The notes under the pieces: model-generated | What the model was told of the DNA's origin: nothing | Seen by the model: only the letters and a program-made list of their open reading frames with translations | Databases searched by the model: none | Shown: positions 2 through 4,392 of the stretch, piece by piece | Position numbering within the stretch: position 1 is the stretch's first letter | Layout of the letters: each line of letters opens with the position of its first letter | Assembly (NCBI RefSeq): GCF_004117855.1 | Contig: NZ_QWBW01000019.1 | Span: forward strand, 3,256-67,255 | DNA length: 64,000 nucleotides | Origin: Modicisalibacter coralii | Lineage (GTDB): Bacteria; Pseudomonadota; Gammaproteobacteria; Pseudomonadales; Halomonadaceae | Direction of reading: 5' to 3' | Position numbers and translations under genes: made by a program

Positions 2-3000
2 GCGTTGTCGAGCCACCTCGCGCGGGTCGGCGAACTCAGGCAGACGGCGCGCTGGCACGCCGAGTTCCGTGACGCGCATCCCGATACCTCGCCGGGCGAG
101 CTGCTGGCCCTGAAACGTGAACAGCACGAGGCCCTCGGCGAGGAGCGCGAGGCGCTCGACGCCGAACTCGCGTCGACGCGGACCCAGCGCGACGCCGCTC
201 GCGAGGAGCGCGATCGTCTGGCCGGCGAACGGGCGCGCCTCGAGGGCGAACGGGGTCTGCTGGCCCAGGGACAGGAGGCCTGGCAGGCGTTCGTCGACGG
301 TTGGCCCGACGCCTCGATCGAGGGGTTCTGGACGCGCCGCAAGACGGCGCTGGCCGACGCGCGTCAGGCCGAGCACGAGGCGCGCCGGCAGCGCGACGAG
401 TCACGCGCGCGGCATGCCCGACTGGCGCCGCTGGCCGAGGCCGCGGCGCGCTATGCCGAGCTGTACGGCGACGAGGACCCGGTGCACCTGCGCGATCGGC
501 TGCATCGCCAGGCTCGCGAGCTCGACGATCGCTGGCATCGCCTGGACAACGAGGAAACGCGCCTGCGCGGGCTGCACCGGGCCCGACTGGCCTTCGCCGA
601 GCTCGACGAGCGCGATCCGAAGCGCTGGCTCGAGGATGCCCGGGCGCGCTATCCGCGGCTGCTCAGCGAGGCCGAGACCCTGGACGCGCAGATCGATGCC
701 CGCCAGCGCTACCTGGAGAGCCTCTCCGGCGATCCGCTGGCGCGGCAGGTCGCCGAGGCCGAGGCCCATGCGCTGCTCGACGAACGGGCGATCGCCTTCG
801 TACCGCTCCACGAGGCGCTGAACCGCGAGTCCGTGGCTCCGGAACGGCGTCGCGACTGGCTGGCCCAGGCCGCCGGCCAGCTCTTTGCCCCGGTCGTCGA
901 GGGCGAGACCGCCGCCGAACGCGCCGCCGAGTGCCTCATCGAACACGGTCTGAACGTGCCGGTGGTCGAGGCCGGGCGGCTCGCGGAGTGTCTGACCGAT
1001 GGGCGGCCCCCGCTGGGCGCGGTTCAGGGCGTCGAGACGCTGGCGGTCAAGGCGGCGTTCGATCCCCAGTATCTGAGCGCGCTGCGCGACGAGACCCAGC
1101 GGCGGCTGGACGCCGAGCGTCAGCGTCGCGCGGCCCTCGACGCGGAGATCGAACGGCTCGATCCGCACGGCGAGCGTTTCGCCCTGGCGCTGGATGCTCG
1201 GCAGGCCGACGACGAGGACGTCGAGACGGCACTGGAGACGCTCGCCGACCAGCGCCGCGATCTCATGTCGCAGCGTCAGGCGCTCGCGCCGCGGCTCGAG
1301 GAGTCGGCACTGGCGACCATCGACGATTTCCAGCGCTACCTGCTCGAGGGCGGCGAGCGAGCGCTGGCGGAGGCCGCCGAGGGACTGGCCCGGGCGGAAA
1401 CCTGTCTCGCCGAACTCGGCCCGCGCATCCGGGCGGAAGAACGCGAACTGGAGACCCACGGGGCGACCTGGCTGGCCGCCGAGAAGTTCGCCGACGCCGG
1501 CGGGGTGGCACGCCTGGAAACACTCACGGCGCGGCTCGCCGAGCTGGGCGAGGCCCATGAACTCGCCGGCGAGCGGCTCGCCGAGGCCGACGAGCGAGCC
1601 GAGACGCTGGACCGGCGCCGCGCGGAACTCGACGCCCGCCTGCAGTCCCTGTTCGCCGACGGCGAACGCGAGCGCCTGCGCAGCCTCGAGGCGTTCGAGG
1701 CCGAGGGCGGCGTGGCCTTCATGGCCACGGCCGAGGCGGTCGAGGCCGAACTCGAGACGGCGCTGGCCACGGCGAACCGGCGGGCGGGCTTCGACTTCGC
1801 GCGGATCCGCGGCTATCTCGAGGTCCGCGATGACAGCGGCGGCAGCCAGAAGCTCGAGCGCGAGATCGCCCGGCTCAAGCGCGAGCGCGATGCGACGCGG
1901 GACGAGCGCCGGGCCCGAAGCCGTGAGCAGGAAACCGTCGAGGCGCGCCTGGCCGACAATCAGCAGGCGCTGGTGGCCTGTGACCAGCTGGCGGTGGCCT
2001 GGATGGAACGGGTGCGCGAGCTGCCCGGCGGTTGGACGACGCGCCTCGCCGCGCTCGATGACCTGACCGCGGCGAGTCGCTGGCCCCACGATCACCCGCA
2101 GCACGAGGTGCTCGACGCGGCACTCGACGACTGGCGGCGCCTGGCGGGCAGCATGGACGGCGATGCGGATCAGGCCGTCGATCTCGCCGCGCTGACCGCT
2201 TGCCAGCAGAGCCTGCTGGGTGCCCTGGGCGAGCTCAACCTGGGTGAACGGGCGCGCAACCGCGAGCGCCAGGCCCGCGAGGTGGCCCAGGGCGAACGCC
2301 ATCTGGCCGAGGCCGTCGCCGCCGCCGGCGAGAGCCGCGCCTTCAACGATACCGAGCGCGCCCGCCTGGCCTCCCTGGAGGGCGTCAGCGCGGCGGCGCT
2401 GGACGATCTGCGCGCGCTCTACGCCCAGCTCGACGATCAGCTCGCCGAACATCGCCAGCGAGTCGAGCGGCTGCACGCCACGCGCGAGCAGATCGAGGGC
2501 ACGCTGGTCGAGCGGCTGGGCTCGATCATCACCGATGCCGCCGGCAACCTCGACGTGCTGCGGCGCGTGGCGCGGCGCAGCAGCGAGGGCGGCGCCTATT
2601 TCGAGGTCCGGGCGGCGTTGATCGGCGACGCGGCGGTACGCGAGCTGATCCAGCAACTGCTCGCCGACATCGACGAACACCAGGCGGCGGCCCGCCGTCG
2701 CCTGGATCGCGACGGCGCGACGCCGGCCGGCGAGCAGCGGCGCCGCGACGAGGAGCTCGCCCGGCAGATCCGCCGACGCATCTACCGCGGGTTGTTCCGC
2801 GACGTGTCGATCCGCCTCAAGCACGACGCGATTCGTCCCCACGGGCGGCTGTTCTCGCTCAACGAGGACATGTCGGAGGGCCAGCGCGAGGCGGTGTCGC
2901 TGATGTGGCTGGTCAAGCTCTCGGAGTTCGCCATCGAGCGCGAACTGCGCGAGCTGCCGGGCCACCACAAGCGCCGTGCCCGGGCCGGGCGCGAGAGCGT

Positions 3001-3301
3001 GATCCTGCTCGACGGGCTGTTCTCCAAGCTCTCGCACCGGCGGCTGATCCAGGACTCGCTGGAGTCGCTGCGCAACACCCGCGGGCGCTTCCAGATGATC
3101 GGCCTGATCCACAATCCCAACTATGAAAATGACGCGGCGATCTTCCCCACCTACCTGGTGGGCAGCGTGATCGGCGGCGCCCAGGGGCAGGGCGGCCACG
3201 TGGTGGTCCGCGATGGCCGCGCGATCGCCCCCGAGGCGGTGGGACGCGGTCACGGCGAGGCCAGCCTGTTCGGCATTCACGTCACGGAGCCGTCGTCGTG
3301 A
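2..3301 (+). CDS. SMC/MukB-like ATPase (JetC-like), 5' end missing
   Basis: The reading frame is open from the window edge, so the N-terminal Walker A head lies outside; about 1098 residues are visible. Most of it is Arg/Glu/Ala-rich heptad sequence typical of long antiparallel coiled coils. A less charged globular insert at about residues 255-360 sits where an SMC hinge would be. The C-terminal head has an ABC-signature-like MSEGQREAVSL near residue 955, a Walker B-like strand VILLDGLFSKLS near 1000, and a following LIHNPNYEND segment. The stop overlaps the start of the next gene (GTGA), as expected for a translationally coupled pair. With a Toprim partner downstream, the best reading is the SMC subunit of a Wadjet/Mks-like DNA-clamping system. 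The MukE/MukF-like subunits would have to be upstream of the window. It does not show the SGGQ and DEA motifs of ordinary JetC. SbcC-like repair ATPases are the main alternative. Confidence 0.7.
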   Translation, partial: ALSSHLARVGELRQTARWHAEFRDAHPDTSPGELLALKREQHEALGEEREALDAELASTRTQRDAAREERDRLAGERARLEGERGLLAQGQEAWQAFVDGWPDASIEGFWTRRKTALADARQAEHEARRQRDESRARHARLAPLAEAAARYAELYGDEDPVHLRDRLHRQARELDDRWHRLDNEETRLRGLHRARLAFAELDERDPKRWLEDARARYPRLLSEAETLDAQIDARQRYLESLSGDPLARQVAEAEAHALLDERAIAFVPLHEALNRESVAPERRRDWLAQAAGQLFAPVVEGETAAERAAECLIEHGLNVPVVEAGRLAECLTDGRPPLGAVQGVETLAVKAAFDPQYLSALRDETQRRLDAERQRRAALDAEIERLDPHGERFALALDARQADDEDVETALETLADQRRDLMSQRQALAPRLEESALATIDDFQRYLLEGGERALAEAAEGLARAETCLAELGPRIRAEERELETHGATWLAAEKFADAGGVARLETLTARLAELGEAHELAGERLAEADERAETLDRRRAELDARLQSLFADGERERLRSLEAFEAEGGVAFMATAEAVEAELETALATANRRAGFDFARIRGYLEVRDDSGGSQKLEREIARLKRERDATRDERRARSREQETVEARLADNQQALVACDQLAVAWMERVRELPGGWTTRLAALDDLTAASRWPHDHPQHEVLDAALDDWRRLAGSMDGDADQAVDLAALTACQQSLLGALGELNLGERARNRERQAREVAQGERHLAEAVAAAGESRAFNDTERARLASLEGVSAAALDDLRALYAQLDDQLAEHRQRVERLHATREQIEGTLVERLGSIITDAAGNLDVLRRVARRSSEGGAYFEVRAALIGDAAVRELIQQLLADIDEHQAAARRRLDRDGATPAGEQRRRDEELARQIRRRIYRGLFRDVSIRLKHDAIRPHGRLFSLNEDMSEGQREAVSLMWLVKLSEFAIERELRELPGHHKRRARAGRESVILLDGLFSKLSHRRLIQDSLESLRNTRGRFQMIGLIHNPNYENDAAIFPTYLVGSVIGGAQGQGGHVVVRDGRAIAPEAVGRGHGEASLFGIHVTEPSS

Positions 3302-4392
3302 GTCACCTTAGCGAGCGCGCCGAGGCGGTCAAGACCCGACTCGAGGGCGAGTGGTCCCGACATCGTCAGCGCGGCAGGCTCAAGCGCTGGAACAGTTCGA
3401 CGCTGGCACGGAATCTCAAGCACGAGGGGCCCTGCGAGACCGAGTTCGAAGCCTGGCAGGTGCTGGCGGAGCTGGCGGCGGCGGGGATCGTCGAAGCGCC
3501 GGCGGCGTCCCTCAGGCATCAGGTCTCCTTGACGCTGGGACTCTCGGAGGCCGTTCGTCATCGCCTGGCGTCCGAGGCGGTGCCGGTCGATGCGTCGCTG
3601 GGTCTCGACGCCGGTCAGGCCGCGGCGTGGCGCCATGCCCTGGCGGAGGGGCTCGAGGAGTGGTCGCTCGCCGACCAGCGCCGGCTCGCGGAGGGGTTGA
3701 GAGCGCTGGCGGCGGCGCTGCCCGATGCCTATGCCACCAGCGCCTTCACGGCCAGTGCACGCTACCTGCTGGGCAGCAGCAAGCTGCTGGATGCCCTGCC
3801 GGCGCCGCTGGTGCGGGCCTTCGGTATCGATCGCGGGGCCTTCAGCGAGTCGTGCAGCTGGGTGCTGGCGTCGGTGCCGACACACCCCGAGGGGCTGTTG
3901 CTGATCGAGAACCCGCAGAGTTTCGAACAGGCCTGCCGGGTGGGGGTGGGCGACCGTCAGGCGCTGATCTGCAGTTTCGGTTACGGGCTCTCGCTCGCCC
4001 GGGCGCTGGCCGAACCGGAGCGGGTACGCCTGATCGGCGAACGGGCCTCGCGTTGCTCCCTCGCCGAACTCATGGCGTTGCCGACGGCGACCTTCTGGGG
4101 CGATCTTGATCCCGAAGGGCTGCGCCAGTTCCGTCGGTTGCGCGCGAGCCTGCCGGGGCTGCGGCTCTCCGCCCTCTATGCGCCGATGGCGGCGGCCGAG
4201 GGGCATCCGCTGCACGTGCTGACCGGCAAGGGCGGCCAGCGCCCGGGAGGCGACTGGGCAAGGGGCGTCGACCAGGAGGCGATCGACGACGCGACGCTGC
4301 TCGAGCTGGCCGGGGGCGCGCTCGATGAGGCCCGGGAGCGGCGCTGGCTGGCGGCACTCGACGCGCCGCCGGGACCGAGCGCGTTCGGCTGA
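3298..4392 (+). CDS. Toprim-domain protein, JetD/DUF2220-like
   Basis: A 364-residue protein starting at a GTG that overlaps the SMC-like gene's stop codon by four bases. The N-terminal third looks like a winged-helix DNA-binding region (basic segment RGRLKRWNSSTLARNL). The C-terminal half carries Toprim landmarks: LLLIENPQSFE, giving the conserved Glu, and FWGDLDPEGLRQFRRLRASLP, giving the Asp-x-Asp pair in the arrangement seen in Wadjet JetD/MksG nucleases (GDLD..G). In Wadjet systems this subunit cleaves plasmid DNA trapped by the SMC complex, so a nuclease role is inferred here. It converges on the diguanylate cyclase gene with only five bases between the stops. I am fairly sure of the Toprim fold. 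The assignment to a specific Wadjet type is open. Confidence 0.7.
   Translation: MSHLSERAEAVKTRLEGEWSRHRQRGRLKRWNSSTLARNLKHEGPCETEFEAWQVLAELAAAGIVEAPAASLRHQVSLTLGLSEAVRHRLASEAVPVDASLGLDAGQAAAWRHALAEGLEEWSLADQRRLAEGLRALAAALPDAYATSAFTASARYLLGSSKLLDALPAPLVRAFGIDRGAFSESCSWVLASVPTHPEGLLLIENPQSFEQACRVGVGDRQALICSFGYGLSLARALAEPERVRLIGERASRCSLAELMALPTATFWGDLDPEGLRQFRRLRASLPGLRLSALYAPMAAAEGHPLHVLTGKGGQRPGGDWARGVDQEAIDDATLLELAGGALDEARERRWLAALDAPPGPSAFG

Follow-up and report, generated by a model that had tools for sequence, protein, structure and literature searches.

Locus and operon organization

The window analysed here is a stretch of 64,000 nucleotides from Modicisalibacter coralii (contig NZ_QWBW01000019.1; G000:C11:3256-67255), whose left end carries the last two genes of a four-gene operon, encoding a structural maintenance of chromosomes (SMC)-like ATPase and a JetD-like Toprim nuclease. 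The original prediction, made from the letters of the window, had read this SMC-Toprim pair, coupled by a GTGA overlap, as resembling a divergent Wadjet/Mks defence module; the pair and its overlap lie where it placed them. The operon is on the + strand in the order F-E-SMC-JetD, and neighbouring genes overlap by four bases at every junction. The same four genes recur in the same order in relatives, showing that the arrangement is more than chance. The evidence developed below makes it probable that the operon represents an unclassified Wadjet-like SMC-nuclease lineage whose F-E-SMC core has a function of its own. The genes are listed here, with plain positions referring to the window and positions marked L002 to the locus read from the contig start:

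L002:1-744, + strand: F, C-terminal end, 247 amino acids (aa), open reading frame (ORF) directly upstream of E
L002:741-1664, + strand: E, 307 aa, ORF between F and SMC
L002:1661-6556, + strand: SMC, complete ORF, 1631 aa
2..3301, + strand: SMC-like ATPase in the JetC/MksB position, 3' two thirds of the gene, frame open at the left edge of the window, 1099 aa
3298..3301, + strand: GTGA overlap between SMC stop and jetD start, from the ORF positions
3298..4392 (L002:6553-7647), + strand: JetD-like Toprim nuclease, 364 aa, identified by Pfam JetD_C, PADLOC JetD1 and a profile match to a type I JetD group

The truncation of the SMC gene is caused by the window edge alone. The complete gene starts 1595 bases before window base 1 and its product has one X, at the single N found immediately before the window. 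F is split: contig C11 begins within it and contig C21 ends within it, holding the N-terminal part (C21:6-1040). The two parts overlap by about 90 profile positions, so the assembly is broken inside F. Partners resembling MukE and MukF, if present, had been placed outside the window. Extending the contig upstream did reveal E and the end of F directly before the SMC gene, yet neither matches a JetA or JetB model, and their likeness to MukE/MukF comes from operon position and from fold ranks that are not significant (see below). Downstream of the operon are a PAS-GGDEF protein encoded antisense (Pfam scan) and an ORF that resembles, by its sequence appearance, a cyclopropane fatty-acid (CFA) synthase. 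The same genome encodes a canonical SMC as well, and the canonical SMC model scores over its cut-off in 21 of the 23 genomes searched; the SMC of the operon is therefore an extra SMC.

The Toprim protein is a relative of JetD

Judged by its sequence, the Toprim protein is a JetD relative, as had been proposed. It scores 24.8 bits against Pfam JetD_C (cut-off 22) and matches PADLOC JetD1 at E 1.6e-13. Against four type I JetD groups, a profile built from 11 JetD relatives reaches E 2.2e-12 across 189 columns with one of them and E 1.6e-7 to 3e-4 with the other three. The glutamate of its IENP motif and the GDLD motif align with their counterparts in one type I group, and both are invariant in the 11-sequence alignment (A2) used for counting:

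3907..3909, + strand: Toprim acidic residue E204 of IENP (ENP at 3907-3915), invariant in 11/11 JetD, aligned with IEN of the type I group
4099..4110, + strand: Toprim GDLD (D269, D271), invariant in 11/11 JetD, aligned with GDLD of the type I group

The Toprim glutamate and DxD of a JetD nuclease are present in the window protein. They may be equivalent to E236 and D279, the residues at which MksG of C. glutamicum was mutated (PMC10123090). Scans of Pfam, PADLOC and NCBIfam gave no match to DnaG, topoisomerases or other housekeeping Toprim families. The JetD proteins of relatives also match the PADLOC JetD1/JetD3 models. JetD3 matches those of L215 (6674-7714) at 3.7e-13 and of L024 (4329-5408) at 6.1e-6, and JetD2 models match the same two more weakly, at 5.2e-4 and 5e-5; the PADLOC JetD types are thus not cleanly separated for this lineage.

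F, E and SMC fall outside the modelled Wadjet types

The operon has the gene number and order of Wadjet type I (JetABCD; DUF3375 and DUF5716 subgroups in PADLOC), with a JetD-type Toprim nuclease in last position, and its SMC shares a distantly similar N-terminal head. Its other proteins, unlike those of type I, find no match at E up to 1 among the PADLOC JetA, JetB and JetC models of types I, II and III, nor any Pfam or NCBIfam family above cut-off. Model scans of F, E and SMC from four relatives (L026, L016, L024 and L215) and of F from L025 gave no useful JetA, JetB or JetC match; the only JetC matches, at E 0.014 and 0.17 (the latter to JetC3), fall in the presumed arm of the L215 SMC. The window SMC, of 1631 aa, is also longer than the 1121 to 1223 aa of 16 JetC control ORFs (L048-L063) that adjoin JetD_C matches in the class, and of which four, one per each of four groups, were scanned and all proved PADLOC type I. 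The JetC3 model of type III is likewise long (1473 positions).

Profile comparison leads in the same direction. The SMC profile reaches E 2e-5 at best against the four type I JetC groups, versus 1.6e-16 or better among these groups themselves. The similarity concentrates in the N-terminal head, which matches one JetC group at E 4e-7 (probability 92.8) over 53 columns around Walker A. The SMC model TIGR02168 gives E 0.0049 and 14.6 bits against a cut-off of 567, and sub-threshold matches to ABC_tran (0.071) and AAA_23 (0.26) lie at Walker A. Membership of a known Wadjet type was rejected by model scans and profile comparison together, in agreement with the earlier suggestion of a possible distinct Wadjet type or new SMC-nuclease system: no JetC model match rises beyond coil-level scores. 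Types II and III share with the lineage the JetD3 and JetD2 matches of L215 and L024, and they are set apart by the missing JetA, JetB and JetC matches in model scans only, since none of 200 genomes holds a type II JetC over the TIGR02680 cut-off that could serve for sequence comparison. The JetA3 model has no match in the genome of the window, and it matched no control genome either. On this sequence evidence F-E-SMC-JetD is probably a lineage separate from types I, II and III of Wadjet in their PADLOC definition.

An SMC family without the catalytic glutamate

The C-terminal ATPase motifs of the SMC are located in the window as follows:

2870..2884, + strand: ABC signature M-S-E-G-Q (SMC residues 1489-1493), S, G and Q in 80/80 sequences and E in 78/80
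3011..3034, + strand: Walker B and D-loop D-G-L-F-S-K-L-S (SMC residues 1536-1543), assigned from motif order and spacing
3110..3112, + strand: switch (H-loop) histidine, SMC residue 1569, kept in 80/80

The signature, the D-G-L-F-S-K-L-S segment and the GDLD of JetD had all been noticed by the original prediction, as had the lack of the usual SGGQ and DEA motifs; that the catalytic glutamate is lost family-wide was not visible to a reader of one sequence. The window Walker B motif reads VILLDGLFSKLS and the family consensus is D-G-L-F-S-x-L-S, with a glycine at the position of the catalytic glutamate. Glycine follows the Walker B aspartate in all 82 SMC sequences, the window's among them (80/80 plus two found later), 29 of which have JetD alongside and 53 do not. 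The D-loop aspartate is also replaced, by serine (S1543), in 79/79. Other ATPase motifs are kept: Walker A is N-G-x-G-K with its lysine in 78/79 sequences, and the signature S, G and Q, as well as a switch histidine 33 residues past the Walker B aspartate, are found in 79/79 of the alignment. Walker A, signature, Walker B aspartate and switch histidine stand in the correct order with SMC-like spacing. In the 80-sequence set the duplicate loci L014/L183 and L015/L184 are counted once; it includes L170 (G892; SMC ORF of 1094 aa), which was excluded from the 79-row alignment and from the trees. The sole sequence of the 79 without the Walker A lysine is that of Halomonas beimenensis (L015), with arginine at residue 49; the C-terminus of the JetD of this locus is also divergent in its alignment.

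The residue pattern is the opposite of that of the JetC controls, which have D-E-A-F in 16/16 and proline at the switch histidine position in 16/16. The intact Walker B glutamate of JetC, found in all 16 controls (the four scanned being type I), is glycine in 82/82 here, and the window SMC has D-G rather than D-E and H rather than P at the switch. Canonical SMC controls (four of ten) show D-E-V-D with the histidine 32 residues further on.

In some ABC ATPases a switch histidine can take over a large share of the catalysis. The exchange of glutamate for glycine may be fully compensated, by this histidine or by another acidic residue, in which case the complex would be an ordinary ATP-driven extruder and a fourth Wadjet type. 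The histidine invariant here and replaced by proline in the JetC controls speaks for this idea, as do invariant acidic residues in both SMC heads (e.g., E92, D205, E219, E247, E251, E1507). However, the D-loop aspartate has been lost too and no structure places the candidate residues near the gamma-phosphate, leading us to consider full compensation doubtful, if deserving of serious attention.

The change also recalls Lamassu LmuB, whose Walker B glutamate is replaced by glutamine, and equivalent changes are reported to slow ABC ATPases drastically (PMC10586767). The SMC could by analogy be a Lamassu- or Rad50-like sensor that binds ATP without hydrolysing it and senses DNA ends or structures instead of plasmid size. 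Weak matches to LmuB, at 2.7e-3 when the window part is scanned and 5.2e-4 when the whole gene is, and a match to TrlF (E 2.5e-6) go in this direction. However, it is the presumed arm that matches LmuB, and the TrlF match (residues 1142-1501) covers mostly arm and stops at the signature. LmuB, of about 650 aa (PMC10586767), differs from the 1631-aa protein in size, in partners, in the nuclease and in the replacing residue, and the gene set here is F-E-SMC-JetD with a JetD-like nuclease. Such a sensor is, in our opinion, improbable. As identities for the system itself, Lamassu was rejected for its weak LmuB matches and different gene set, and TrlF for a score of 26.5 bits against a cut-off of 350 in a match that is mostly arm. 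SbcC/Rad50 and other repair or housekeeping SMC proteins gave no match above threshold in the library scans, so that neither the SMC nor the Toprim protein falls in the repair or housekeeping families that would have contradicted the original prediction.

Distribution of the core and patchy presence of JetD

The SMC C-terminal profile (A1) detects 3/369 genomes of the class, 3/398 of the phylum and 5/293 of the order, each count including the genome of the window. Among 250 Halomonadaceae genomes it matches 77 at E 0.001 and leaves 173 without a match. The JetD profile (A2) has 30 matches in the same 250 genomes. Twenty-four are strong, all in SMC-bearing genomes. The remaining six, with E 1e-4 to 8e-4, were too weak to be counted as JetD of this kind; one of the weak ones (G812) is in an SMC-bearing genome, on a different contig from the SMC. 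It follows that 53 of the 77 SMC-bearing genomes are without JetD of this kind, and the defence role named in the original prediction is putative. E is found in every one of the 77 loci and F in all except G889, whose contig begins too late; the 53 JetD-less loci thus comprise 53 with E and SMC and 52 with F. No common fourth gene follows SMC in these loci (in G017 the contig ends 205 bases past SMC), which led us to reject a replacement effector for JetD.

JetD fragments are left in 2 of the 53 JetD-less loci (G885, G966). In G966 (L179) jetD is reduced to a 35-aa stub, which would fit a deletion of most of the gene, and behind the stub lies a putative Xre-RES toxin-antitoxin pair, recognized by sequence appearance; the same putative pair follows jetD in G876 (L185).

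Each of the five complete operons seen outside Halomonadaceae carries JetD; one was found by its JetD (L016) and four by their SMC (L024, L025, L215, L216). On a FastTree phylogeny of 81 SMC proteins the JetD label needs 14 changes, 13 of them forced by well-supported branches, against about 24 when labels are shuffled; the 79-row tree gives 14 against about 23. These trees have some long branches that make the deepest placements unsure, and the counts of changes give no direction of gain or loss. JetD and SMC distances correlate strongly (Mantel r 0.86 for 24 genomes, 0/2000 permutations as high), and the JetD and SMC trees have the same deep order, with three outgroups, then G1128/G1167, then Halomonadaceae. 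Because JetD is present in the outgroups, its distances follow those of SMC and the two trees agree in their deep order, we infer that change was mostly in the direction of loss, and repeated JetD loss is likely from these sequences.

Several copies outside this pattern were observed. The 490-kb conjugative P. aeruginosa plasmid pPUV-6 (NZ_MT732184.1; L018) carries, at about 235-237 kb, a broken operon that consists of an SMC tail (about 317 aa) and a JetD gene. Mercury genes and a Tn3-family transposase are located nearby, and matches of equal length and identity occur in a second plasmid record, NZ_MT732186.1. In Parachitinimonas caeni (L017:7569-10666) F-like and JetD-like genes flank a putative insertion sequence transposase with no long SMC ORF, forming another broken copy. 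In G889 the SMC occurs in two equally scoring copies (C6, C27), by duplication or as an assembly artefact. None of 26 candidate stretches for relatives on viral contigs was confirmed.

Selection and genomic setting of the core

The ratio of nonsynonymous to synonymous substitution rates (dN/dS) was computed for closest pairs with the same JetD label, dropping values with dS outside 0.02-1. For SMC the median is 0.094 in JetD-less genomes (20 usable of 24 pairs) and 0.137 in JetD-bearing ones (10 usable of 11 pairs), a difference with p 0.08. That of F is lower in JetD-less genomes (0.101 vs 0.155, p 0.02), E shows no difference between the two groups, and the median of JetD itself is 0.269 (6 pairs). 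The F-E-SMC core is under purifying selection without JetD, and the comparison gives no sign that losing JetD relaxed this selection. A dying defence system whose JetD-less copies are non-functional remnants might be imagined from the two loci with JetD fragments, the broken copies L017 and L018 and the single short SMC ORF of L170. Such decay is already contradicted by the dN/dS of the JetD-less SMC genes, while the SMC ORF exceeds 1600 aa in 52 of the 53 JetD-less loci and its ATPase motifs are invariant. We give this explanation almost no weight.

In 64 of the 77 loci the fetched stretch contains one or more of four neighbours (ArgP-, LysE-, CFA-synthase- or DUF77-like), which points to a common chromosomal site for the operon. 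The frequent neighbours are, as we presume from their sequences, ArgP, CFA synthase, DUF77, GGDEF, truncated globin and LysE proteins, the GGDEF protein alone having been scanned against Pfam.

Retention of the core without JetD in 53 of 77 genomes, its frequent position near the same genes and an SMC dN/dS no looser in JetD-less than in JetD-bearing genomes would suit a chromosome-organizing condensin of the MksBEF kind, to which JetD is a minor add-on and for which plasmid restriction is not the main role. MksBEF of P. aeruginosa is reported to work in chromosome segregation alongside SMC-ScpAB (PMC7485682). MksBEF and MksBEFG also resemble the operon: both combine an SMC with a pair of small subunits, and the latter adds the nuclease MksG. 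No MksB, MukB or MukEF family match appears in the Pfam and NCBIfam scans, and here the presence of JetD switches many times inside one bacterial family. However, the 173 Halomonadaceae genomes without an SMC match fit poorly with such a condensin, as does the coexistence of a canonical SMC, which implies that the SMC of the operon is not the main condensin, and the finding that JetD accompanies all five complete operons outside the family and is largely co-inherited with SMC. A condensin role of this sort is somewhat unlikely as the main explanation. The alternatives weighed in this work are not all mutually exclusive.

Proposed function

We lean towards the explanation of a Wadjet-like SMC-nuclease lineage that is outside the present classification, with a core that has its own function. 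Several results weigh against it. The SMC C-terminal head has no profile match to any JetC or SMC head; the C-terminal heads of JetC groups are likewise without a profile match to canonical SMC. Profile comparison relates neither F nor E to type I JetA or JetB, in a test that also fails for 4/6 pairs of known JetA groups and 2/6 JetB pairs. AlphaFold models of F and E, built from eight and seven relatives, have low mean predicted local distance difference test (pLDDT) scores (F 53.7, E 62.7), and Foldseek found no significant match for them among 350,542 chains (best E 0.02 for E and 0.1 for F), with mostly common winged-helix regulators in the lower ranks of E and unrelated helical proteins in the later ranks of F. 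The recurrent neighbours look more like those of a resident gene set than of a roaming defence system. The history of JetD also departs from pure loss: in seven pairs JetD is far more diverged than SMC, G918 and G984 are sisters by SMC and not by JetD, and the partner of G009 is G000 in the SMC tree but G018 in the JetD tree. The diverged pairs and tree conflicts make some exchange or regain of JetD likely.

The top of the structural ranking is suggestive, although none of its matches is significant. MukBEF holds PDB ranks 1 and 2 for the E model, followed by Nse1-Nse3-Nse4 (3) and MukE-MukF (4), and a MukBEF head-module chain is rank 1 for the F model (E 0.1). A search by sequence for solved structures returned none. 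A kleisin role for F and a KITE role for E are likely from these models, the gene number and order of Wadjet being present and the fold ranks lending weak support.

The operon would then encode an SMC complex of JetABCD/MksFEBG layout, with a kleisin-like F, a KITE-like E, a roughly 1630-aa SMC and, as nuclease, a Toprim protein of JetD type. F, E and SMC would form a ring or clamp on DNA. When JetD is present, a state reached on small circular DNA would activate cutting by JetD, as in the model for circular-DNA sensing and cleavage by JetABCD (PMC10586767), and restriction of small circular DNA may be expected from this analogy. For the genome of the window, with its complete gene set, such sensing and cutting is the favoured guess. 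Slow ATP hydrolysis, or hydrolysis aided by the retained switch histidine, is probable, given the glycine that every sequence has in place of the Walker B glutamate; fast hydrolysis appears doubtful from the sequences. The complex may act as an ATP-gated DNA clamp more than as a fast loop extruder. Since 53 Halomonadaceae genomes keep the core without JetD, the core presumably has a job without the nuclease, most likely the handling of chromosomal or invading DNA as by MksBEF of P. aeruginosa.

A more radical version sees an SMC family that has moved off canonical ATP hydrolysis altogether and works as an ATP-gated clamp or one-shot switch, both composite sites of the SMC homodimer being without the catalytic glutamate. 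JetD would be a plug-in nuclease that some dozen losses have removed, and what stays on the chromosome of many Halomonadaceae would be an SMC clamp that works alone and does not extrude. We regard this full scenario as unlikely, at about one chance in four.

Significance

Neither the Walker B glycine nor the JetD-less cores were found described in the literature on Wadjet, JetD, MksB and SMC, mostly open-access, so that an earlier mention is possible. Defence finders based on the PADLOC JetA, JetB and JetC models would overlook these operons. Total loop extrusion, powered by an ATP-driven SMC motor, is the leading model of how Wadjet discriminates between plasmids and chromosomes (PMC10586767). 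With a natural relative whose SMC has no catalytic glutamate, this model can be put to a direct test, the two outcomes being that hydrolysis can proceed in another way or that circles are sensed without it. For MksG of C. glutamicum, DNA cutting in vitro is reported to need no MksBEF ATPase (PMC10123090), which leaves the link between hydrolysis and cutting open.

MksBEF of P. aeruginosa shares chromosome organization with SMC (PMC7485682), and the core retained in Halomonadaceae perhaps has, by analogy, a second role of this kind. The patchy loss of the nuclease from a core that is kept within one family provides natural pairs with and without JetD, which bear on how defence SMCs and chromosome-organizing SMCs interconvert.

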